Part shown: piece by piece, positions 3,890-61,953 of the stretch
Layout: every line of letters starts with the position of its first letter
How positions within the stretch are numbered: the stretch's first letter is position 1
Origin: Parablautia sp. Marseille-Q6255
GTDB taxonomy: Bacteria > Bacillota > Clostridia > Lachnospirales > Lachnospiraceae
Length of the DNA: 64,000 bases
Assembly (NCBI RefSeq): GCF_951230155.1
Contig: NZ_CATNVD010000002.1
Coordinates: 1 to 64,000, forward strand
Direction: 5' to 3'
The notes under the pieces: model-generated
The model's input: the letters and a program-made list of their open reading frames with translations, nothing else
What the model was told of the DNA's origin: nothing
The model's database searches: none
Translations under genes and position numbers: made by a program

Positions 3890-3957
3890 TACCATGTGAC
3901 ATTTCTTCAAAATAGGGGATGTGTTACTACTCTGGTATTTTAACAATAATTTATCAA

Positions 3958-4008
3958 GCGTTTTAGGATTTCCACAAAAGACAATGCCAGGTGATACAGT
4001 TAGGAAAA
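3958..4008. repeat. 51-bp direct repeat, right copy
   Basis: Matches 1807-1857 at 50 of 51 positions. Here it is a tail-only fragment of the small membrane protein gene, without the rest of the reading frame. It lies 30 bp from the leader-proximal CRISPR repeat. Confidence 0.85.
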
Positions 4009-4283: not shown

Positions 4284-4574
4284 TTACATAATAAGAATTC
4301 CATCTGCGGGAGTTCCTCTGTCAACTCCCACATGTTCTACTTTTGTTTTATACTGATTTCCCAGATAGTAAAACCTTAAGCTATCCACCTCTTCATCGAT
4401 TATATCGGACAGCTTCGCCTTGAGCACCACACATTGCGCATTGTCCAATATACATTCAAAAACAGAATTTTGTACTCTTCGCCCATAGTTTACACACTGC
4501 CTGGCTACTTTTCGCAATCATCTTTTTCCCGCGTCAGTTTCTGTATTCACATCGTAGGTAATCAATACTAACAT
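4284..4574 (-). pseudogene. cas2: cas2, interrupted by an in-frame stop
   Basis: Cas2 forms the central dimer of the Cas1-Cas2 spacer integrase. From ATG 4574 the frame reads MLVLITYDVNTETDAGK, with the family's first beta strand and Asp8, and then meets TGA at codon 19 (4520-4518). The same frame continues without shift as LRKVARQCVNYGRRVQNSVFE to a normal C-terminus at 4284. A single CGA-to-TGA change would explain it. Restart at the TTG after the stop would lack the first strand and Asp8. Total coding length (97 codons) is normal for the family. Confidence 0.85.
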
Positions 4575-4587
4575 ACCTCTGTCCACC

Positions 4588-5620
4588 TCATTTCCAAAGA
4601 AATACCGGATAACTGTCTAAATCACCTCTTAAATATCTCGCCAGCAACATTGCCTGCACATAAGGAACCATTCCCCACTCTATTTTCTCATTCAGGTAAG
4701 GATGGGTTAACGTTTCTTTCTTTTTATTCTGCCATTCTGTCAACAGCTTCTTTCTCAGATCGTCATTCATCAGGACAGCGCCGTTTTCTTTTGTTATGAA
4801 GCTTTTACCAGTGACTATTTTCTTATTGATCAGGGATACAACAAACCTGGCTGCCAGCACGGCTCTTAATTCCTCAATTAAATCCAGGGATAGCGAAGCT
4901 CTCCCCGGCCGCAATGTGTGAAGATAGCCGACATACGGATCCAGTCCTGCGCTCTCCAGAGCAGAAGTAATTTGATTTGTCAATAATGTATACACAAAGG
5001 ATAACATCGCATTGACCTTATCTATTGGTGGTCTTTTATTTCTGCCCTGAAATTTGAAATCTTTTTTCTGTTGTAAGATCAGCTGATCAAATACTCCGAA
5101 GTAAACGCTGGCTGCTTCGCCCTCATATCCTCTTATCTGCTCTTTTGACTGACAGTTCTGAATGTAATGGAGAGAATTTTTCAAATATTCAGATGCAGCC
5201 TTTACCTGCTCTGCATCAATCTGAAGACTGTGATCACGGATAGCACGCTCCAGCACCCATCTTGCATTATGTACTTTTCCTAAAATGCAGTTTCTTGCAA
5301 TTTCAAGACTTTGCACCTCATTTTTTGCACTGTCATACTGCTGCTGTCTTAATACGACATTTCCCTTTATCTTTCCGCTTACTCTCGCTAAAAATTTTCC
5401 CTGCGGCGTTATATAGCACAAAGAGATGTTGCGCTCTGCACACGCCCCCATCAGTGCAGGGCTTGTCCCCCCGGTAGCCAAAGGAAACTATCCCCTCTAA
5501 ATTATGCAAAGGGAGACGCCCTGCTTCTGCTGTTCCTTCAAGAACTACTATATTTTCGCCATCTAACGCCAGATAACTGCTTTCAGAGGTCACGTATAAC
5601 GTATTTAATAATTTTTTCAT
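4588..5620 (-). pseudogene. cas1: cas1 (type I-C), frameshifted
   Basis: Cas1 is the metal-dependent integrase of spacer acquisition. The first about 50 codons (MKKLLNTLYVTSESSYLALDG...) run from ATG 5620, overlapping the cas4 stop. The frame then shifts at a run of six G (5472-5467), after which the rest of Cas1 (TSPALMGACAERN onward) continues in another frame to 4588. Removing one G restores a full-length protein of about 343 residues. Active-site candidates are intact downstream: Glu in YEGEAA, His in LHTLRPGRAS and the acid cluster in DLIEEL. A homopolymer sequencing error is possible, but cas2 is also broken. Confidence 0.85.
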
Positions 5621-6282
5621 TCGTTGTCCTCCTTCAGCGCCTGATGAATGTAGGTTTTTACTGATCCTGCTTTTCCCAGTTTAGGCAAACAGATATCCTT
5701 AAGAGAACACGCATTACAGGCCTTGCTGTATTTCACTTTCGGAGTATATTTTCTGTCAAAATACTGATGCATTTCCTGAAATATTGCTTTTACTTCTCGA
5801 CGCAAATCTTCCGAAATCTCTATGATTTCCCTTCTTCTCGTCTCTCCGTAAAACAATGCCCCTTCTGGAATATCCGCCGAAAACATCTCCTCCAGACACA
5901 GCGCCTGGGCTGCGAGCTGCAGCTGATCCTCCACAGTAACCTTTGGTTGGCCTTTTTTATACTCGATCGGGTAAACAGAAAAAGTCCCTCTGTGACCATG
6001 CAGCCTTATTCCGTCTTCACACCTGTGAAATTCAACCACATCACACTCGCCGCTGACGCCCAGTTCTCTGGAAGTGACCGGAAGAGACCGCGCAACAAGC
6101 AGATCCTTTCTTTTTTCCACCAGATAAGGATCGTGAGCTTTTTTGTGCATCAGCTCGCCTAGAGCTGTATGCACATTTTCCGCCCATTGCTGCTCAATAT
6201 GGATCAACGCCCATTGTCTTCTGCAAAATTTAAAATGTTGAATACCAGATAACATTAAATAATTATCTTCTGCATATTCCAT
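5617..6282 (-). CDS. cas4: Cas4 PD-(D/E)xK nuclease
   Basis: A 221-residue Cas4, the nuclease that trims prespacers and helps select PAM-proximal ends for Cas1-Cas2. The RecB-type core is visible as GECDVVEF followed by YPIEYKKG, and then the helix QLQLAAQALCLEE. Iron-sulfur ligands are Cys20 (FCRRQ) and the C-terminal CNACSLKDIC cluster. The start overlaps the cas7 stop as TAATG, and the stop overlaps the cas1 start, so translation is coupled. It appears intact although its partners Cas1 and Cas2 are broken. Confidence 0.93.
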   Translation of the reverse strand: MEYAEDNYLMLSGIQHFKFCRRQWALIHIEQQWAENVHTALGELMHKKAHDPYLVEKRKDLLVARSLPVTSRELGVSGECDVVEFHRCEDGIRLHGHRGTFSVYPIEYKKGQPKVTVEDQLQLAAQALCLEEMFSADIPEGALFYGETRRREIIEISEDLRREVKAIFQEMHQYFDRKYTPKVKYSKACNACSLKDICLPKLGKAGSVKTYIHQALKEDNE

Positions 6283-7193
6283 TAAATCATCCTTTTCATT
6301 TCTACAGAATCCGGTATACTTTCTTCATGTATCTCGACAATATAATCCTGATAGCTTCTCGGGAATTCTACCCCTTCTTTTTTTCTCACCTCGATAGCAT
6401 CAAACAATTTGTAAGCCGGGCAGTCTCCGAGCTCTTTGCTGTGTTTAAACACGATCAGCTCCCGCACTGCCATGTTCCCTCTTGCAGCAGAATGATCATG
6501 CTCAAACATGTTGATGATCGCCTCCCACAGCAGTTCGAGATCTTCCTCCGAAAATCCGGTTACTTTCCGGGCCAGATTCGCAGACACATACCCTTCCACA
6601 CGATATAAGCCATACGGCACAATGCTCTTTCTTCCCATCTCAGTACTTTTATTTTCGGCATCCTTTTCTGTTGTGATCGCTACTCTCGTAACTGTAATCT
6701 CCTGAGAAACGATTGGATCAATACTTCTTGCAAATCCAAGCTGCACCGGTCCTCTTACCTGACCGCAGTTCAAAGCGGCCTTTACAAATGTAGTCATGAC
6801 AGCGCCAAACGTTCTGATATCAAAAAAGTTCCGGCACATATAATCGCGGATTTTTACGTCTGCATCTGCATCACTTTTCTTCAGTTTTTTCAAAGATTCT
6901 GTAACCTTTTTTTCATCGGTTTCCTCTATTCCAAGGCTTGCACAGGCTTCTCTGTCACTTCGGTTCAGCGGAACATCCTCTTTTATGTATATCTTATATC
7001 CCTGTGCATCTTCCTTTACCGTTTCAATATAATTCCGGATTTTTCTTTTCAGACACACGTCCGTAACCAGCCCAAGTCCGCTTTCCGGGTCAATTCTCGG
7101 CATGTTTCCAGCATCCGGATCTCCGTTTGGATTTCCGTTTTCTACGTCAAATAAAACTACAAATTCATATCGGTTTTTAATTACTTCGCTCAT
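6282..7193 (-). CDS. cas7: Cas7 (Csd2), type I-C Cascade backbone
   Basis: This 303-residue Cas7c polymerises along the crRNA to form the Cascade backbone. It opens with the RAMP-type strand YEFVVLFDVENGNPNGDPD and contains the family's NFFDIRTFGAVM and GQVRGPVQLGFARSIDPI segments. It follows the cas8c stop directly with AAGGAGG placed inside the end of cas8c. Full length, with no missing motif seen. Confidence 0.95.
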   Translation of the reverse strand: MSEVIKNRYEFVVLFDVENGNPNGDPDAGNMPRIDPESGLGLVTDVCLKRKIRNYIETVKEDAQGYKIYIKEDVPLNRSDREACASLGIEETDEKKVTESLKKLKKSDADADVKIRDYMCRNFFDIRTFGAVMTTFVKAALNCGQVRGPVQLGFARSIDPIVSQEITVTRVAITTEKDAENKSTEMGRKSIVPYGLYRVEGYVSANLARKVTGFSEEDLELLWEAIINMFEHDHSAARGNMAVRELIVFKHSKELGDCPAYKLFDAIEVRKKEGVEFPRSYQDYIVEIHEESIPDSVEMKRMI

Positions 7194-8945
7194 TTATTTT
7201 TCCTCCTTTTTTTCGTACTTTTTCTGTGTCTGATGATAATATCCTATTGCAAATTTTCCCTGTTCTTCTAATGATAAGCGCTTAGGGAAGCCTTCGTTCG
7301 CATCCACTTTCCACATGATCTCCGTGAAAAGCTTTTCATAATATTTTTTTGTACCTTCTTTTTCCCGTCCGATTTTCTTCATATGGCTGTTTTTTAATTT
7401 AATTAAAGTGGGAAATACTATCCCCGGAGTTCCGCACGCCGAGTTAAAATAACGATCCCGGATTGTTGCCTGTATTGTCGGATTTGCCTCTGACTGTATC
7501 GATTCCAGTACTGAAAACAGCCTCCCCAATACGTATGAAATCTCATTGCTTTCTTCATTTAAGCCCATATAATCCTCTCCTTCCTCCCAGTTACAGTTTT
7601 TCATTAAATATGTTTTTATAATTGCGATTCTTCTCCAGGTGATCTTACTCTCATCCTGTTCTGCCCGGATACGGATCAGCGTATCGGAATACAGTCTTTC
7701 CGGGTATCTGCTCCCCGATAAAATTGCGCGAAACGTCATTGCAGCCATATTCGATACTGGTTTTTTATCCTTCGAGTTCTTATTCACAGTTTCATACAGC
7801 ATATCCCGAATGCCCAGATACTGCCTCGTCTCCCATTTCGGTTGTACCACTTCCATTCTTTTATAGTGTGCAGAAATGTTCTTTAAGATGTTTCCGAAGG
7901 AGTTCTCATAGAAAAACCGCACAGACAGTCTTGCTGCATTTGGCGCCAACCCCAGAACATAAAATTTCTGCTCCATATCCAGTTCATCGCCATTAAAAAT
8001 AACAGGATGTCCTAAGTGTATTTTTTCGAACAGCCCCCTCAGCTCCCGCTGGTTATCCACAGACGGCTCCGTACATTCCCTGAAGAAATCCTGATACCCC
8101 GCATTGCCGCTTTCCGCCCAGAAAACGACCATGGCATCCCCGACCGGAAAAGAATATTCCCGGGTAGACAGCAAATAATTCAGCGCCGTTGTATAAGAAA
8201 ACTCTGCACGTTTGCCCACCGGAGCATTATAACTTTGTTCCTTTCCATAGGATTCAAACGCAGGCGCATTAAAGGAAACCAGCGCCGCACCGCTTGATTG
8301 TGCACCCGGAACACCTCTTATTCCTCGATGGATTCTCGCGATCTCTGCCTTTTCCCCTGTCACAAGACATATACCCTGATCCCCTTGTGTTTCTGTGTTT
8401 TTTTTGCTGTCCCAGATTTCTTTTATTTCCGCATCATTTTGAGCATAGTCCATGCCTATTCCGAAAATCAGATTTCCCCCATCTGTGATTTCTTCCCAGT
8501 TCGCTCTGATCTCCTCATGATCCATTGCTTTTTCCGGATCCCATTTTTCAAAAAACAAGCGAACGGCTTTTGCCATATCCCCCTCCGCCTGCTCCAAGAA
8601 AGAAAGATGCTTTTCTTTTGCAGCAAGAAAACACTCTCTCGCTCTCTTTTTATTCTTTTCATCCTCTTCCAGACAGATACCCAGCAGATATTTCGCATTG
8701 TCACACAAAAAATTGGCAGATACGCCGGAGGATCTCGTCACCATCTCCGGCACTGAAAGCGGCTGTGCAGCCCATACCTTCTTCTTTCCCCGCTCTTCCT
8801 CACTTTTCAGACTGATGATCCCCTTCACTTTCCCTTCTTTGTTCAGATCAATCTGGTACGAGACTTTTGCACTGCACCAGCCCGGTCTTGATACCTTTCC
8901 GTCATCTGCCAGGACTTCATAATATTTTGTAAGAGCCTGTAACAT
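7194..8945 (-). CDS. cas8c: Cas8c (Csd1), type I-C large subunit
   Basis: A 583-residue large subunit that recognises the PAM and, in I-C systems, carries an internal translation product acting as small subunit. It begins MLQALTKYYEVLADDG, a characteristic Csd1 start, and contains the conserved AQPLSVPEM, FNAPAFESYGKEQSYNAPV and FYVLGLAPNAARLSVRFF segments. The start overlaps the cas5 stop (TAATG). No frameshift or stop is present. Confidence 0.95.
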   Translation of the reverse strand: MLQALTKYYEVLADDGKVSRPGWCSAKVSYQIDLNKEGKVKGIISLKSEEERGKKKVWAAQPLSVPEMVTRSSGVSANFLCDNAKYLLGICLEEDEKNKKRARECFLAAKEKHLSFLEQAEGDMAKAVRLFFEKWDPEKAMDHEEIRANWEEITDGGNLIFGIGMDYAQNDAEIKEIWDSKKNTETQGDQGICLVTGEKAEIARIHRGIRGVPGAQSSGAALVSFNAPAFESYGKEQSYNAPVGKRAEFSYTTALNYLLSTREYSFPVGDAMVVFWAESGNAGYQDFFRECTEPSVDNQRELRGLFEKIHLGHPVIFNGDELDMEQKFYVLGLAPNAARLSVRFFYENSFGNILKNISAHYKRMEVVQPKWETRQYLGIRDMLYETVNKNSKDKKPVSNMAAMTFRAILSGSRYPERLYSDTLIRIRAEQDESKITWRRIAIIKTYLMKNCNWEEGEDYMGLNEESNEISYVLGRLFSVLESIQSEANPTIQATIRDRYFNSACGTPGIVFPTLIKLKNSHMKKIGREKEGTKKYYEKLFTEIMWKVDANEGFPKRLSLEEQGKFAIGYYHQTQKKYEKKEEK

Positions 8946-9607
8946 TATCGTATCACCTCACAGTCGCGCAAATCCAGTACACCATGTCTCAACACTGCCC
9001 GAAAAAACATGGGAGTTATATTATTTTTGTCCGTATAATCCATGTCAAATAGCATCAATCCCAGATCTTTTTCTGCAACATCATCAAACGCCGTTTCAAT
9101 CTCTTCCTCTTCACACAGTGCAAAATTTACCGGAAACTCCCGGCAGCCAAAATATGGCATATGATAGCACTTTCCTTTTTGCAGACGTCTCATCATAATA
9201 TCCTTGAATTTCCCCGGATTATCTGTTTCATTTGCCCGCTCTGTCATCTCAAAATGTGCTTCGATCACATACGCCACATCCGTCAGGATCATAGAAGCTC
9301 TTTGCACGATTTCCTCTTTGCTGCTTATGTAGAGCGGCTTTTGGGCTCCATTGTATACAGGCAAAACATTATTTGCAGAAATCTTGCTTTTCACTTCATT
9401 TCTCCGCACACTGGTAAAACGGATCGGATTCTTCACATATATTTTGTCAATGACCCACTTCAGCCCTGGATGCCAGTAGATGGCTTCTAAAATCCCTCTT
9501 GCTGCCGATGGCGTCATCACATCATAAGAATATCGTTCTACCTTTAGCTCGGGGCGCGAAAATAACGCATAATCGCCCCAGACCTTTACTTTGACTCCCA
9601 TTCCCAT
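8945..9607 (-). CDS. cas5: Cas5c (Cas5d) crRNA-processing subunit
   Basis: This 220-residue protein replaces Cas6 in type I-C: it cuts pre-crRNA at the base of the repeat hairpin and stays bound to the 5' handle. Visible are the N-terminal VKVWGDYALFSRPELKVERYSY, the MTPSAARGILEAIYWHP motif with the catalytic-type Tyr44, and a Lys/His cluster in KGKCYHMPYFGCREFP. Start ATG 9607 has GAGGTGAT upstream. It sits 18 bp after the DUF3791 gene, so the two share a transcript. An intact Cas5c matters for the small-RNA candidate at 10204, which has a processable hairpin and handle. Confidence 0.95.
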   Translation of the reverse strand: MGMGVKVKVWGDYALFSRPELKVERYSYDVMTPSAARGILEAIYWHPGLKWVIDKIYVKNPIRFTSVRRNEVKSKISANNVLPVYNGAQKPLYISSKEEIVQRASMILTDVAYVIEAHFEMTERANETDNPGKFKDIMMRRLQKGKCYHMPYFGCREFPVNFALCEEEEIETAFDDVAEKDLGLMLFDMDYTDKNNITPMFFRAVLRHGVLDLRDCEVIR

Positions 9608-9625: not shown

Positions 9626-9862
9626 TTATAAAATGATGTTGGAGACAAAAGTCCCCTCCGTCATCTTACTTTCTTTTATAAACTCATCTGCCACCTTTTC
9701 AATCGACTCACAATAAAATACCTCCGCGTATTCATAAATACGTTTAAGTCGTTCTTTCCCAAAAATATCTACTACTTTTCTTCTCGTTCTTTTTGCTCTT
9801 CTTCCGATATATTCAATCAGGCTGCACGTAAAAAACAAATCGTTGTCATTTTTTCTCGCCAT
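9626..9862 (-). CDS. DUF3791-like protein
   Basis: A 78-residue acidic/basic helical protein (NDNDLFFTCSLIEYIGRR, ... IYEYAEVFYCESIEKVADEF). It resembles DUF3791 proteins, small partners habitually encoded beside DUF3990 ADP-ribosyltransferase-fold proteins and suspected to form toxin-antitoxin-like pairs. Here it lies directly after a DUF3990 remnant and directly before cas5, under the promoter at 10064-10092. Family assignment is from recognised sequence features; the biochemical role is unproven. Confidence 0.6.
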   Translation of the reverse strand: MARKNDNDLFFTCSLIEYIGRRAKRTRRKVVDIFGKERLKRIYEYAEVFYCESIEKVADEFIKESKMTEGTFVSNIIL

Positions 9863-9999
9863 ATGCAGCCTCGCTTCCTATTATCATTGGGTTCATACTC
9901 ATATTTATTGATATAACCATTTTTTCCATATCGTGCAGCCCAACGTTCTGCCGGTTCCGGATATTCTACTATTTCCTTACTGCCGTGATATAAGATCAT
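9817..9999 (-). pseudogene. Eroded DUF3990 (ADP-ribosyltransferase-fold) gene
   Basis: The frame starts MILYHGSKEIVEYPE, the usual DUF3990 N-terminus, then jumps to PAERWAARYGKNGYINKYEYEPND, which matches a segment normally some 25 residues further on, so an internal deletion is likely. After EYEPND the similarity ends and the frame runs out over the start of the DUF3791 gene. The family is usually about 160 residues; only about 45 recognisable residues remain. It is the first gene after the cas5-operon promoter. A toxin-like product would be inactive in this form. Confidence 0.6.
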
Positions 10000-10063: not shown

Positions 10064-10092
10064 ACTATAACATACTCTCTCTCAAAAAGCAA
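10064..10092 (-). promoter_or_regulatory. Promoter of the DUF3990-DUF3791-cas5...cas2 operon
   Basis: On the minus strand -35 TTGCTT (10092-10087) and -10 TATAGT (10069-10064) are separated by 17 nt, with an extended TGT before the -10. It lies 65 bp upstream of the first ATG. The candidate small-RNA target begins 33 bp upstream of the -35, so a full-length Cascade footprint would reach the -35. Confidence 0.7.
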
Positions 10093-10100
10093 TACTAAAT

Positions 10101-10128
10101 TTATTTTTGTTAAGTAAATTCTATGGAA
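10101..10128 (-). promoter_or_regulatory. PAM plus partial protospacer for the divergent guide-like RNA
   Basis: On the minus strand TTC (10128-10126) is followed by CATAGAATTTA. The spacer-like segment of the RNA at 10230 reads CATAGTATTTA. Ten of the first eleven positions match, the only mismatch being position 6, which is flipped out and unpaired in type I guides. Further matches occur at positions 14, 16, 18 and 20-23. TTC is the known type I-C PAM. A Cascade bound from 10125 downward over a normal spacer length would abut the -35 at 10092-10087. Confidence 0.65.
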
Positions 10129-10168
10129 ATATATAAAATTTAAAATTAACACAAAATATCTTCTCTTG

Positions 10169-10197
10169 TTGTCGTTAAAAAAAACTTATGTTATACT
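10169..10197 (+). promoter_or_regulatory. Promoter of the guide-like small RNA
   Basis: -35 TTGTCG (10169-10174), a 17-nt spacer and -10 TATACT (10192-10197) preceded by the extended element TGT. Transcription would start near 10203-10204, exactly at the first base of the pseudo-repeat. Confidence 0.7.
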
Positions 10198-10203
10198 ACG
10201 TTC

Positions 10204-10321
10204 GTCAGAAGTACTCTGTGGATTGAAATCATAGTATTTATCTTAAAGAAATTTGTCAGAAGCGGTGTTTATGCAGTATCATGGTTCTGTGAACCTCTGC
10301 ATATCACCGCTTCTGCCCTTT
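10204..10321 (+). ncRNA. Candidate CreR/CreA-like Cas-regulating RNA
   Basis: The RNA would open with a 26-nt pseudo-repeat (10204-10229): GTC, a CAGA/TCTG hairpin with loop AGTAC, then TGGATTGAAAT, which is exactly the 11-nt 5' handle left by type I-C Cas5. A 25-nt spacer-like segment (10230-10254) follows. A second GTCAGAAG, the same eight bases that open the pseudo-repeat, then leads into a long terminator hairpin (10257-10315) and TTTTT. It is divergent from the cas5 operon and its guide segment matches DNA upstream of that operon's promoter beside a TTC PAM. Known CreA/CreR RNAs use partial, seed-only matches to steer Cascade to a promoter and repress it. Expression and function are inferred, not shown. 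Confidence 0.65.
10257..10315 (+). terminator. Terminator hairpin of the guide-like RNA
   Basis: Three nested stems: CAGAAGCGGTG/CACCGCTTCTG (11 bp), TATGCAG/CTGCATA (7 bp) and GGTTC/GAACC around TGT, followed by CCCTTTTT. On the other strand it lies just past the cas3 stop and may also help end cas3 transcripts, though the T-run there is weak. Confidence 0.8.
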
Positions 10322-10341
10322 TTATCGTTTCCCAGCACTCT

Positions 10342-12498
10342 TTAGAAAAACAGCGCCATCCCATTGTCGATCTCTAATTCCAGTCCCATCTCCTGCGTAT
10401 ATCTGCTGGTATCTGTCAGCACATAGAAATCCTTCATATCTTCGGATACCGGTTGTATCATCCCTGCTCCCTGCATTTTATTAAATGTCTGATCATATAT
10501 GGAAACACAATACTGACTTGCTTTTCGCATACCGGATCTGGTAAATCCTTTATGCTGTAGCTCCTGAAGAATTTCATCTGCTCCTTCTTCACAATTTATA
10601 AAAATTGTCTTTGTATTCTCTTCAATCAGCTTAAACTCTTTTCCCACCTTTGCAAAATTATATTTCATTTTTTTATCCGTAAACTCATCCAGAATTTTTT
10701 TCTTATCCAGGCTGTCCCCCTTGATATGGTACAGCATTTCAAAATATTTTGTGATTGTCTCCATATCAGAAAGCTCTCTGCCATCGGCAAGCAGGCTTTT
10801 TGCAACATCGATCTGCTGCCTTTGCCCCATCACTGTTTCTTTTCCTTCAAAACAGAAAATAAATACTTTACTGCTTTCCGCCTTTCGCCGTCCTTCTCTG
10901 TTGCAGCGACCCGCTGCCTGTATCATAGAATCCACACCGGCAAGTTCACGATAAACAGAATGAAAGTCAAGATCCACGCCAGCTTCTACAAGACTGGTGG
11001 AAATGAGAATACATTTCTCATTGCTTCGAAGCTTTTCCCTGACCTCATCCAGCACGCGCTTTCTGTGTACAGGATACATACTGGTAGACAAATGGTACAC
11101 TCCAGTCCCTTTTAATTGTTTATAAATACTCTGTGCCCTTTTTTTCGTATTAACTATGCAAAGTGCCTGCTGTTCCTCTTCCAGCTTCTTTATGAGCGAA
11201 TCCTCTGTCACAACTCCTGCGTTTTCAAATTGTGTTCTTTTGAAAAATTCAAATTGCTCCTGCAGTCTCGGGCACAACTGCGTAGCCGGAGCCTTGCTTT
11301 GAAAAAACGATGTGAGAGCCGGCTGCGTCGCTGTACATAAAACGACACTTGTTCCATAGTTGTTCATAAGCTCCTCTATCATCGCAATGCATGGCTTTAA
11401 ATAATCATTTGGCAGCATCTGGGCTTCATCAAAAATAATCACACTGTTCGCAATATTATGCAATTTTCTGCATTTAGAAGACTTGTTCGCAAACAATGAT
11501 TCAAAAAACTGCACATTCGTTGTGACAACAACCGGCTTGTCCCAATTTTCCGATGCGAGCTGCATTGCCCGAAGTTCTTCTGTACTTTTCTCTGTGCTTT
11601 CATAGTCGACATTGCAATGATTTTCCAGCACATTCCTGTCTCCCAAAATATCTCGAAATACCCTGGCATTCTGCTCAATAATACTGGTATATGGAATGAC
11701 ATAAATCACTCTGTCCATTTGATGTTCCACTGCATGACGCAATGCAAATGCCAAAGAAGCGATCGTCTTTCCTCCGCCTGTCGGAACAGTCAGATGAAAG
11801 AGGCCTTTTTCGGATTTTCCTTTTTCGAGGCAATATCTTAATATTTCTGACCGCCGCCCGTTGACGGTATCCGTATCCTGGTTATTTAACCATCCGGAAA
11901 TATGTTTTTCCAGCTTTTCAAAAAGGATTTCTATGCTTTCTCCAGGATTTCTCTCTTCTTTCCCGTCATTCATAAAAGCTTCTGTATCCAGAAAATCTGC
12001 ATCTACCAGACAGGAATAAATCATCCGGATGAAAACACTAAGCGAAAAATCCGGATTCGTTGTTTTTTTCCAATCAAACGGGTCTGAACTGATTTCCGGA
12101 ATTTCGATCTCTGTACGGTATGCCGTATAATCGCTGATTCTCTTCTGCATTCTGCCCATCAAAGTTGCATTTCCACCATTATCAAAATTGTCTCCGTGGT
12201 CTGCCAGTCCCGCATGATGCCCGGCAATGCAATACTCCAAAAAACGATACTTCCCGCCTTTCTCCCTGCAGGCTCTGGCTCCCGCCGTAGCATGATCTAC
12301 CTGACGCTTACTATCCCATTTTATTTTTTCCTGAAAATCCACAGAATACTTTCCTATGTCGTGGAGCATCCCGCAGCAATATCCCCAATCCTGTTTTCCG
12401 AACTTTTCTGCAAATTCTCCAGCCAGCTTTGCCGTCCCGTTCAAATGTTCTTTTATCGTCTGTATCCCCTGACTGTTCTTATGTGCAATATATTCCAT
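10342..12498 (-). CDS. cas3: Cas3 HD nuclease-helicase (type I-C)
   Basis: A 718-residue Cas3, the single-strand nuclease and translocase recruited by Cascade to degrade target DNA. The HD domain shows His20, His48-Asp49 (MLHDIGKYS), His71 (DHATAG) and GHHAG. The helicase shows Walker A VPTGGGKT, motif II DEAQ, motif III TATQPAL, and motif V-VI VEAGVDLDF ... QAAGRCNREG. I prefer ATG 12498 over the GTG two codons earlier, because GGGAGAA is then correctly spaced. It has its own promoter (12590-12618) and is separated from cas5 by the guide-like RNA region, so it is probably regulated separately from Cascade. Confidence 0.95.
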   Translation of the reverse strand: MEYIAHKNSQGIQTIKEHLNGTAKLAGEFAEKFGKQDWGYCCGMLHDIGKYSVDFQEKIKWDSKRQVDHATAGARACREKGGKYRFLEYCIAGHHAGLADHGDNFDNGGNATLMGRMQKRISDYTAYRTEIEIPEISSDPFDWKKTTNPDFSLSVFIRMIYSCLVDADFLDTEAFMNDGKEERNPGESIEILFEKLEKHISGWLNNQDTDTVNGRRSEILRYCLEKGKSEKGLFHLTVPTGGGKTIASLAFALRHAVEHQMDRVIYVIPYTSIIEQNARVFRDILGDRNVLENHCNVDYESTEKSTEELRAMQLASENWDKPVVVTTNVQFFESLFANKSSKCRKLHNIANSVIIFDEAQMLPNDYLKPCIAMIEELMNNYGTSVVLCTATQPALTSFFQSKAPATQLCPRLQEQFEFFKRTQFENAGVVTEDSLIKKLEEEQQALCIVNTKKRAQSIYKQLKGTGVYHLSTSMYPVHRKRVLDEVREKLRSNEKCILISTSLVEAGVDLDFHSVYRELAGVDSMIQAAGRCNREGRRKAESSKVFIFCFEGKETVMGQRQQIDVAKSLLADGRELSDMETITKYFEMLYHIKGDSLDKKKILDEFTDKKMKYNFAKVGKEFKLIEENTKTIFINCEEGADEILQELQHKGFTRSGMRKASQYCVSIYDQTFNKMQGAGMIQPVSEDMKDFYVLTDTSRYTQEMGLELEIDNGMALFF

Positions 12499-12589
12499 TT
12501 TCACTTCTCCCTTCGTTTTTCTTTCTGACTCAAAAACTGTTTTTCACAGATATAGCATTTTCCTGCACCGGACATTTTTGTATACTTGT

Positions 12590-44986: not shown

Positions 44987-46896
44987 ATCGAGTAGGAGGC
45001 GGTGATTAGCCGCCGTCCTCTCACACCACCGTGCGTACCGTTCGGTACACGGCGGTTTCAATAGTTGATGTGCAGAGACTGATAGGCTGTGGCTAAATCA
45101 TAGAAGCCCCAGTTTATCAGTCTTTCTTTTGTTAATGCTCTTTTGACCACACCCGTGTTAGACATCCTCCAGTAGGATTTTCTGCTGTATGCTCCTTCGC
45201 ATGCTGCCCACTCTGATAACCCCAGTCCTATCAGCTTTCTCCTCCTGGTCTTTGGCAGTTTCCACTGTTTCCAGATACACATCCGTATCCGGCGGTACAG
45301 CCATCCGTTCACGCTTTCGATATTGTTCTTCATATCCGCTATCCCATAATAGTTTAGCCATCCTCTCATGTAGACTTTTACCTTTTCCATAGTTCGGACG
45401 ACACTTCCGCACTTGCTCCGGGAAGTGAGCCTGCGCAGTTCATCCTTGGCTTTCTCCCATGACTTTCCATGGACTCGGATATAGATTCCTTTTCCGTTCT
45501 TCCCAAAACAGAAGCCAAGGAACTTAAAATTTCGGATTGCGAATACACTGACTGTCCGGCTCTTTTCCCGGTTCACTCTCAGTTTCAACGTTTCCTCCAG
45601 ATATTTCGTGCTGGATTCCAGCAGTCGCTCTGCGGCCCGTTCGCTTTTCGCCAGCAGTACGATATCGTCTGCGTAGCGGATGCATGGCACACCCCGCCTG
45701 TGAAACTCCCAGTCGAATTCATTCAGATACACGTTTGCTAAGAGTGGAGATAGATTTCCTCCTTGCGGGGAGCCTTCCTCCGTCTCTGTTACAACACCGT
45801 TTTCCATCACTCCGCTCTTCAGATATCGCTTTACCATCTGTACCACTCTTTCATCTTTTACCTGTTTCCTCAACTGGTTCAGCAGTATCGTATGGTTCAG
45901 CGTATCAAAGTATCTCGACAGGTCGAGGACGACTGCCCTCGTATATCCCTGCTCGATGTACTCTTTTATCCTCCTGACAGCGTCTTTTGCCCCTCGACCC
46001 GGACGATAGCCATAACTGTCCTTCGAGAACAGAGGTTCATAGATTGGCATCAGCTGCTGTGCCATGGCCTGTTGGATGATGCGGTCTATGACAGTAGGGA
46101 TTCCTAGCTTTCTTGTCCCTCCATCCGGCTTCGGGATCTCCACTCTCCTGACTGGGGAAGGGCTATATTTCCCCTTCCTGATTCTTTCTACCAGTTCGTG
46201 ATTATTCTCCCTCAACCATGGTAACGCCGCTTCAATAGTCATCCCATCAACTCCTGGCGCTCCCTTGTTCGCCTTCACTCTTTTGTAAGCTCTGTTCAGG
46301 TTATCCTTATTCAGTATCTTACTTAGGATATCTGGCTCTGCACTGTCCCTTTCCTTCCATATCCGGTTGAATGAGCGGTGCGCTCTCACATACCCTTTGC
46401 GTTCCGCGCTATCTCTTTGTGAGCAGCTTTCTCTGTTTTCTGTACCCATTCTGCCCATTCCTCCTTTCCCAGTCGTACGAAAGACTCCTATTGATTCAGC
46501 CCTTCGCTGAAAAAAAATCAACTACTATGGCCTCTGCTGACTTCTGTACGTTCAGCGTTACCTTCCGATAACGGTTACTCTTTTCAGAGCGTTCCGTACA
46601 GACCTCCCTGGGTACCACACGTTTCTTTCCCTCCATCCATCTGCCGCATTTACTGCACATGATTCCGTGTAGTTATCGGGCTTCATCTTGTCTTGCAGAC
46701 TTACCCTCATGTACAGCCTTATATGCGATTTCTGTCCGTCAGACCAGAGGTTTGCCCGTGGGTTAGTAAGTTTCCCACATCTGGCTTCCTTCAGATTCCA
46801 TCTCACGATGGACACCCTTGCCTTCGGCTATATCCTTCCCACTACCGGGCGAATTCGGGACTTGCACCCGTTAGAAACGTGCGCCGCCAGGCGCAC
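44987..46896 (-). mobile_element. Class C group II intron
   Basis: The intron spans about 1.9 kb on the minus strand. The 5' end is GTGCGCC (from 46896), and a structured non-coding region of about 450 nt precedes the maturase gene. The 3' part after the maturase (45057-44987) contains a domain V-like hairpin (GAACGGTACG region) and ends near CCTACTCGAT. It sits a few bases after the hairpin and T-run of a rho-independent terminator, the insertion habit of bacterial class C introns. Exact ends are inferred from these motifs and could be off by a few bases. Confidence 0.8.
45058..46449 (-). CDS. ltrA: Group II intron reverse transcriptase/maturase
   Basis: A 463-residue LtrA-type protein encoded within the intron. 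The RT domain shows the blocks GAPGVDGMTIE, IPKPDGGTRKLGIPTVIDRIIQQA, GYRPGRGAKDAV, EGSPQGGNLSPLLANVYL and the catalytic RYADDIVLLA. A group II maturase domain follows (GWLNYYGIADM). There is no C-terminal HNH endonuclease, as in class C introns. ATG 46449 follows AAAGGAGG at 10 nt. The frame is intact, so the intron may still be mobile and splice. Confidence 0.93.
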   Translation of the reverse strand: MGTENRESCSQRDSAERKGYVRAHRSFNRIWKERDSAEPDILSKILNKDNLNRAYKRVKANKGAPGVDGMTIEAALPWLRENNHELVERIRKGKYSPSPVRRVEIPKPDGGTRKLGIPTVIDRIIQQAMAQQLMPIYEPLFSKDSYGYRPGRGAKDAVRRIKEYIEQGYTRAVVLDLSRYFDTLNHTILLNQLRKQVKDERVVQMVKRYLKSGVMENGVVTETEEGSPQGGNLSPLLANVYLNEFDWEFHRRGVPCIRYADDIVLLAKSERAAERLLESSTKYLEETLKLRVNREKSRTVSVFAIRNFKFLGFCFGKNGKGIYIRVHGKSWEKAKDELRRLTSRSKCGSVVRTMEKVKVYMRGWLNYYGIADMKNNIESVNGWLYRRIRMCIWKQWKLPKTRRRKLIGLGLSEWAACEGAYSRKSYWRMSNTGVVKRALTKERLINWGFYDLATAYQSLHINY

Positions 46897-61683: not shown

Positions 61684-61953
61684 GTCCGTGCAACTGGGGA
61701 GTTAGCGGTGCCCTGTACCTGCAATCCGCTACAGCAGGAGTGATGCCGAACGGAGGGCACTTTGTTGTAAAGCTGCCCCTGATAAGTGATGTTGACATTT
61801 GGGTCTTGCGCAACAGAAATCCGTGAACCGTGTCAGGTCGGGAACGGAGCAGCACTAAGCGGAACCTTCTGTGTGCCGCAAGGCAGCCTGGATCGAGTTA
61901 ACTGTCAGGGTAACGTTTATGGCGGGTGTTCGAAGGGAGGTGCACGGATTTTT
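61684..61953 (+). ncRNA. ffs: Signal recognition particle RNA (large, Bacillus type)
   Basis: About 270 nt. The conserved apical domain is present at about 61830-61860 (GTGTCAGGTCGGGAACGGA followed by GCAGCACTAAG), the Ffh-binding loops of SRP RNA. The 5' and 3' ends pair (CCGTGCA with TGCACGG), as in the long Alu-domain-containing RNAs of Firmicutes. It lies upstream of tadA on the same strand. Ends are estimated from this pairing. Confidence 0.9.

Follow-up and report, generated by a model that had tools for sequence, protein, structure and literature searches.

The window analysed here, that is, the whole stretch of 64,000 nucleotides, carries on its minus strand a type I-C CRISPR-Cas locus in which cas3 is followed by a gap of around 735 bp, by cas5c, cas8c, cas7 and cas4, and finally by broken cas1 and cas2 genes (Table 1). 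The cas5c, cas8c, cas7 and cas3 frames are open, and in a profile search they matched near-whole profiles or core domains. In the region of the adaptation genes (4290-5620, minus strand) cas1 shows a frame shift near position 5480 and cas2 an early stop, so that both genes are broken in this locus. Beside cas2 one repeat is left (4071-4038, minus strand), together with one decayed copy recognised by eye (about 1552-1521, minus strand). Between the two, a 52-nt duplication of 98% identity (1806-1857 and 3957-4008) flanks a hydrolase-like ORF, a CD3324-family gene and a Vat-like acetyltransferase gene, the last of them scoring below the family cut-off. Elsewhere in the window, pieces of a group II intron (46499-46812, minus strand) and a large bacterial SRP RNA (61686-61947, plus strand) were detected.

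The repeat beside cas2 occurs once, from which came the idea that the I-C array had been lost from the genome. This was ruled out by contigs C24 and C16 (L128 and L129), with arrays of 18 and 5 repeats that have a different stem, GTCGCTCCCTACGCGGGAGCG, and the same handle as the element described below. A second Cas8c was sought in this genome and none was found, so that the arrays of C24 and C16 may be served by the Cascade encoded in the window.

Table 1. Features of the type I-C locus and of the putative guide RNA gene in the window.
Feature	Position	Strand	Details
cas4	5617..6282	-	TIGR00372, E 1.5e-35
cas7/csd2	6282..7193	-	TIGR02589, E 4.6e-105
cas8c/csd1	7194..8945	-	TIGR01863, E 1.1e-135; sole Cas8c match in the genome
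cas5c	8945..9607	-	TIGR01876, E 8.2e-53
Truncated PDC-M10B partner gene	9629..9862	-	positions 1-72 of 147
DUF3990 / PDC-M10A predicted ADP-ribosyltransferase remnant	9820..9999	-	internal deletion: profile positions 1-15, then 38-63
Predicted operon promoter	10064..10092	-	-35 TTGCTT 10092-10087, -10 TATAGT 10069-10064; reads towards cas5
Target at operon promoter	10092..10128	-	TTC PAM 10128-10126, protospacer 10125-10092, seed 10125-10115
Predicted guide-RNA promoter	10169..10197	+	TTGTCG 10169-10174, 17 nt, TATACT 10192-10197, TG before the -10
Pseudo-repeat	10204..10229	+	GT, arms CAGA 10206-10209 and TCTG 10215-10218, handle TGGATTGAAAT 10219-10229; predicted transcription start about 10204
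Guide	10230..10256	+	seed 10230-10240; positions 1-5 and 7-11 pair with the target
Long hairpin, predicted guide-RNA terminator	10257..10315	+	faces the cas3 end
cas3	10342..12504	-	TIGR01587, E 1.2e-45; upstream of the controlled promoter, gene end facing the guide RNA

A sequence-only reading of the gap between cas3 and cas5c had described a divergent promoter-like site followed by a pseudo-repeat with a hairpin and an 11-nt I-C handle, and these components are indeed present (10169-10197 and 10204-10229). Taken alone, the consensus match of the guide-RNA promoter is weak, because the stretch contains six promoter-like sites and shuffled sequences hold nearly as many (4.0 +/- 1.8). In many relatives a TATA-type hexamer lies shortly 5' of the hairpin, at a variable distance. 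The handle TGGATTGAAAT has a single exact copy within the window, and it is the one used by the C24 and C16 arrays; as expected of a CreR gene, a handle of the same subtype is thus found outside an array and beside cas genes. The 4-bp CAGA/TCTG hairpin is missing from the minimum-energy fold of the RNA 10204-10325, in which the repeat pairs with the guide. This RNA folds better than 200 of 200 shuffled sequences (z -4.25), presumably because of the terminator-like hairpin at 10257-10315, which was not among the predictions of a terminator scan. In Rfam, no family reached its gathering score over the element. Type I-C crRNAs are described as processed by Cas5c alone and as lacking a 3' stem-loop (PMC7684278), with which an element made of a single pseudo-repeat fits.

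The putative target consists of TTC followed by CATAGAATTTA on the minus strand, and 10 of the first 11 guide bases pair with it, the lone mismatch being that at position 6. The match had been claimed for a site around 100 bp away, and it was recovered as such (10128-10115, minus strand), at a guide-to-target distance of 104 bp. It had also been proposed that a full-length Cascade footprint would abut the -35; a protospacer of 34 nt indeed extends to 10092, where the -35 TTGCTT begins, and it is the best promoter-like site on which the footprint falls. The guide therefore has a partial, PAM-flanked match to the predicted promoter of its own effector operon, and the matching effector genes (cas5c, cas8c and cas7) are open, both as in CreR systems. 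Past position 11 the ungapped match of the window guide is poor, and by eye the target appears one base shorter near position 12. An offset of one base between guide and target near position 11-12, after which pairing resumes, was seen by eye in seven cases (window 10114-10125, L033, L043, L057, L068, L075 and L083), as if the base that Cascade skips tolerated an insertion or deletion.

Among 20,000 random guides with the composition of the gap, 6 gave 10/10 and 83 gave at least 9 at a TTC site within the 735 bp, and the 23 real spacers from the arrays of this genome reached a maximum of 8. TTC plus the seed occurs once in the 3.79-Mb genome; the reversed pattern is equally rare (also one occurrence), so that this uniqueness speaks for specificity and not for significance. 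Since the match at a single locus was suggestive, the test was moved to relatives.

Type I-C loci of relatives, with cas5 products 27-88% identical to that of the window, were obtained from a search of 144 related genomes and from a scan with one genome per species, in which 80 of 480 confirmed stretches were kept. In the cas3-cas5 gaps every solitary GG[AG]TTGAAA opposite to the cas strand was taken, whether or not a target existed, and the whole gap was then searched PAM-blind for the site that best matched the seed. Cas-strand handles, handles that deviate from GG[AG]TTGAAA and loci whose fetched DNA lacked cas3 were left out. In the first set the best seed site carried TTC for 44 of 44 handles, with 10/10 in 32 and 9/10 in 12; L001 is the window itself, and L002 and L037, identical in sequence, are both counted. 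In the second set (L135-L184, 45 loci with cas5 and cas3) a TTC site with at least 9 matches was found for 6 of 7 handles, three of these six repeating the first set. The exception, L158 (= L283, genome G358), has the hairpin, the handle and an intact gene pair of the kind described below, with best sites of 8/10, and by eye its guide fits the expected site at positions 1-8 alone. The sequence-only reading had named loci that keep the handle and lose the seed match and TTC as evidence against itself; when they were sought, L158 was the lone case in the two sets.

As a control, 172 other handle-like motifs, CRISPR repeats included, scored no higher than 8 at TTC sites up to 400 nt away; they come from 163 scanned loci, some sharing a genome, and two of them are the distant-target element of L080 and that of L158. 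The element itself is carried by 54 of the 163 scanned loci. When the guides of the 36 exact-handle elements were swapped, at least 9 matches were reached in 68 of 1260 cases, and shuffled guides did so in 33 of 7200. L031, which has its own repeat and no cas5, was excluded from the scans, and in L005, with an incomplete cas3 match, the gap start was placed manually. Among 51 distinct elements, 44 have a stem of 4 bp or more with precisely 1 nt between it and GG[AG]T; the hairpin arms vary (CAGG/CCTG, CAGAA/TTCTG, CTGG/CCAG and others) and their place is constant. The cas3-cas5 gap of L047 holds a CRISPR array, of which the cas strand carries five exact handles.

The element is also found in genome G042 (L026/L132), whose cas5 product is 29% identical and which has its own array, in a contig from a viral collection (L112) and, within the phylum, in further families (L213, L222, L264 and L265). 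In the GenBank scaffold MT836695.1 (L286), of human faecal origin and labelled 'Bacteriophage sp.', it accompanies cas3, the gene pair, cas5c and cas8c of type I-C. By contrast, a universal occurrence in type I-C was ruled out by a phylum sample of 79 further loci, some of them from genomes already scanned, and by four plasmid loci (N. vulgaris DP4, Zymomonas, Brevibacillus and Leptolinea) in which the element was not found. Of the 80 loci L032-L111, 37 lack it (five of the 37 with no cas3 in the fetched DNA), and 32 lack both element and gene pair (two of the 32 with no cas3 in the fetched DNA). The loci without it indicate that the element is dispensable.

The phylum sample yielded 24 solitary handle-like motifs, 12 of which reach at least 9 matches at the best PAM-blind site within 600 nt. 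Six of these sites carry TTC: those of L213, L222, L264 and L265 are new, and L281 and L284 correspond to L033 and L160. The other six, preceded by other triplets (L237, L248, L252, L256, L266 and L269), were treated as chance, and with 9/10 they imply that a single PAM-blind hit means little; the sites of L237 and L269 follow TTT, which is described as another I-C PAM (PMC10865793). With 10/10 attained by so few of the random guides and the same pattern repeated in all 44 handles of the first set, mostly with different seeds, the comparative result makes a chance likeness between an AT-rich guide and an AT-rich promoter very unlikely. In its favour are the base composition itself, the frequency with which consensus promoters arise by chance and the six sites that reach 9/10 without TTC; we give this explanation practically no credence.

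The pattern of pairing was analysed over the 51 distinct elements, counting once those with the same repeat and guide (L037 and L164 = L002, L166 = L033, L170 = L108). Cascade reads DNA in a 5+1 rhythm, with every sixth base unpaired. Matches were found in 51 elements at each of positions 1-5, in 10 at position 6, in 50, 48, 50, 51 and 44 at positions 7-11, in 9 at position 12, in 34, 42, 39, 43 and 31 at positions 13-17, and in 8-21 at positions 18-34. At positions 13-17, 189 of 255 bases are matched, against a background of 26%, and the difference between position 12 and positions 13-17 gives a Fisher p of 4e-14, of guide value only as the elements are related. Sites had been chosen on positions up to 11 except 6, with positions 6 and 12-17 used as tie-breakers only, so that, ties aside, neither the collapse at 6 and 12 nor the pairing at 13-17 was made by the selection. 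Read from these sequences, the pattern of the 51 elements is the 5+1 rhythm of Cascade, and a pairing that has faded by about position 17 would be too short for cutting.

Guides and targets also change together. The 51 elements contain 44 distinct seeds, and between the window and L032 both guide and target have changed at seed positions 1, 2, 5, 7, 10 and 11, each guide scoring 10/10 on its own target and 4/10 on that of the other. A search for covariation in the cas3-cas5 gaps of relatives had been suggested by the sequence-only reading, and joint change was found there: in 6 of 11 hand-picked pairs of elements the sets of changed positions are identical in guide and target (window/L032, L005/L006, L045/L054, L052/L061, L105/L107 and L065/L068), in three they are not identical (L032/L033, L043/L050 and L034/L043), and two further pairs have no differences. 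This joint change bears on the view that the element is a relic, namely a degenerate mini-array or self-derived spacer that is functionless in this genome and owes its match to a working ancestor. With cas1, cas2, the gene pair next to cas5 and the adjacent array all broken, the locus in the window is in decay and may be a relic of recent date; nevertheless, the six seed positions changed with respect to L032 all still pair, the Cascade genes and cas3 are open, and other arrays with the I-C handle persist in the genome, which leaves the relic view very improbable. Even less room is left for a decoy of the Racr type, a solitary repeat that would tie up Cas5c and Cas7 and lower immunity whatever its guide. 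Racrs, which are described as solitary repeat units, include a reported type I-C case (PMC10651486), yet such a decoy would not explain the TTC target, the 5+1 rhythm or the covariation of guide and target, and the present element adjoins the cas genes; we consider its probability negligible.

The position of the targets is also consistent with repression. With promoters taken as the best-scoring consensus matches near the target and no shuffled control, the -35 starts 20-35 nt into the protospacer in 35 of 38 elements with the target on the operon strand (33 in the window), so that a bound Cascade would cover or abut it, and in 12 of 13 elements with the target on the opposite strand the 34-nt footprint lies over the -10. 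In L092 and L095 the element is upstream of cas3. In L264 (1528-1577) the guide matches, at 10/10 and with TTC, the region of the -10 of the RNA itself, upstream of cas3, as if the RNA repressed its own promoter or a shared leader.

The sequence-only reading overlooked a pair of genes between the controlled promoter and cas5, which is broken in the window and intact in relatives such as L002, L032 and L034. In these relatives the first protein matches PF13151 (DUF3990) with E 9.5e-51, ART-PolyVal being the sole other Pfam match up to E 1; an ADP-ribosyltransferase (ART) fold is predicted for it, with weak support. Both proteins have models (PDC-M10A/B) in PADLOC, which collects known and candidate defence systems. 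The partner protein gives an all-helical model (pLDDT 84.7), for which no convincing PDB match was found (best E 3.8 in one search and 0.61 in another), and no Pfam or NCBIfam family matched it up to E 1. From gene order and overlap, one may guess that the partner is an antitoxin.

Within L032-L111, the element is present in 20 of 25 loci with a toxin hit, and in 20 of 21 with cas3 and a full-length toxin, the exception being L053; another 23 elements have no toxin and keep seed and PAM. That the toxin occurs solely beside CRISPR was ruled out by homologous pairs away from I-C cas5 (e.g., in G354, G266 and G291), and the five top-scoring toxin hits among 392 genomes comprise four next to I-C cas5 and one, that of G354, elsewhere. 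PDC-M10A/B pairs away from cas5 were also observed in L187, L192 and L193, near rimP/nusA-like genes in L187 and in a restriction-like locus in L192 (labels assigned from sight), so that the pair appears to form an independent module. L270 (3045-3848) carries a distant DUF3990-like gene (37%) and, upstream of cas3, a mini-array of two repeats whose guide repeats the stretch directly 5' of the first repeat.

These data raise the alternative of an antitoxin RNA of the CrePA type, selected to silence the DUF3990/PDC-M10 pair while Cascade works, either as an addiction module or for suicide in response to an anti-CRISPR, with the control of the cas genes being incidental and the window element a leftover. 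The pair does sit between the controlled promoter and cas5, the element accompanies it in most of the toxin loci counted above, and the predicted ADP-ribosyltransferase fold, weakly supported as it is, and the PADLOC models of both proteins would suit such a role. Against this, the 23 toxin-less elements have kept seed and PAM; in the window, L033 and L057 an intact element adjoins remnants of the pair, showing that the RNA can outlive the pair; and homologous pairs away from I-C cas5 show that the pair does not need the RNA. This explanation is thus improbable, although less so than a relic.

On comparative sequence grounds, we consider it highly probable that 10169-10315 encodes a crRNA-like type I-C CreR that guides its own Cascade to repress the promoter of its own operon without cutting. 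The CreR-like reading proposed from the window is now supported beyond one locus by the handles of both sets (44/44 and 6/7), by the covariation and by the footprint on the best promoter-like site. The guide RNA would be transcribed from its own promoter, cleaved by Cas5c at the handle and loaded into the Cascade made from the neighbouring cas5c-cas8c-cas7 genes, which would then bind the TTC-flanked, seed-only match at the operon promoter. Cas3 would not be recruited, and the operon would be held down by a block of transcription without cutting. In line with this, I-C Cascade without Cas3 has been described to repress promoters at TTC sites with 35-nt spacers (PMC10865793). A scarcity of Cascade, competing crRNAs or an anti-CRISPR would lift the repression.

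Where the pair is intact, the RNA would hold down the toxin-like genes together with Cascade, and the predicted toxin would also rise if Cascade stayed blocked; the best reading of these loci is that the I-C CreR would double there as a CrePA-like guard. As the pair is broken in the window, only the control of the cas genes would remain in it. A fuller scheme, which we offer tentatively and rate well below even, is that of a rescue-or-die switch of gut Lachnospiraceae: Cascade carrying the guide RNA would repress an operon that encodes both an ADP-ribosylating toxin pair and Cascade, a shortage of Cascade would open the operon and thereby replenish the complex, and a lasting anti-CRISPR block would release a toxin that stops the infected cell, the window being a toxin-less case of pure self-regulation.

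If the self-repression by a type I-C CreR is true, RNA-guided self-regulation of Cascade is extended to type I-C, and 51 distinct natural pairs of guide and target display the pairing rules of Cascade as left by evolution (five bases paired and one skipped, TTC, a seed of 10, and fading after 17). The control would also be linked, in one predicted operon, to the two-gene defence candidate PADLOC PDC-M10, for which no described function was found; the pair would gain a testable role, and the response of these gut bacteria to anti-CRISPR phages would become predictable. In practice, a native I-C Cascade used for gene repression may be occupied by its own guide.

In the titles and opening lines of abstracts searched, we found no I-C CreR, none controlling DUF3990/PDC-M10 together with Cascade and no mention of PDC-M10, and five papers mention DUF3990 or DUF3791; the primary CreR and CrePA papers and a 2023 survey may already describe part of these findings. 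That survey, by Shmakov et al., reportedly dealt with isolated repeats and mini-arrays that match promoters of cas or cargo genes. The present element is like its crRNA-like elements in being a solitary repeat element that matches a cas promoter, and the I-C element may already be included there.

CreTA and CrePA are presented as known CRISPR-controlled toxin systems (PMC12737573). In the type I-B CreA of H. hubeiense, seed nucleotides 1-5 and 7-11 and TTC were reported, from mutation, to be required (PMC8501985), so that our element shares with CreTA, which guards type I-B, the seed rule and the PAM. On the other hand, CreT is described as a toxic RNA (PMC12737573), whereas our locus has a protein as its predicted toxin and the cas operon's promoter as the one controlled. 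A CreT gene would be expected to yield a small RNA with rare codons from a promoter of its own; the frames behind the controlled promoter are instead those of DUF3990, its partner and cas5. The likeness to CrePA lies in a predicted toxin gene directly behind a promoter targeted by a crRNA-like RNA, as in relatives L002, L032 and L034. In the window there is no intact protein toxin behind the targeted promoter, the middle of DUF3990 being missing and the partner truncated. CreP is described as being typically a KilA-N domain protein (PMC12737573), whereas the protein of the relatives is a DUF3990 (PF13151) of the ART clan, encoded with a partner and in one predicted operon with Cascade. As for CreR, it is named in one review for types I-B, I-E and V-A (PMC13131331), and our locus differs from it in belonging to type I-C, in its single pseudo-repeat with a terminator-like hairpin behind it, and in that the controlled operon of many relatives starts with a toxin-like pair. 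It resembles CreR in its gene for an RNA with a repeat-like and a spacer-like part beside the cas genes, in the partial match, next to a PAM, with its own effector operon's promoter and in the open effector genes.
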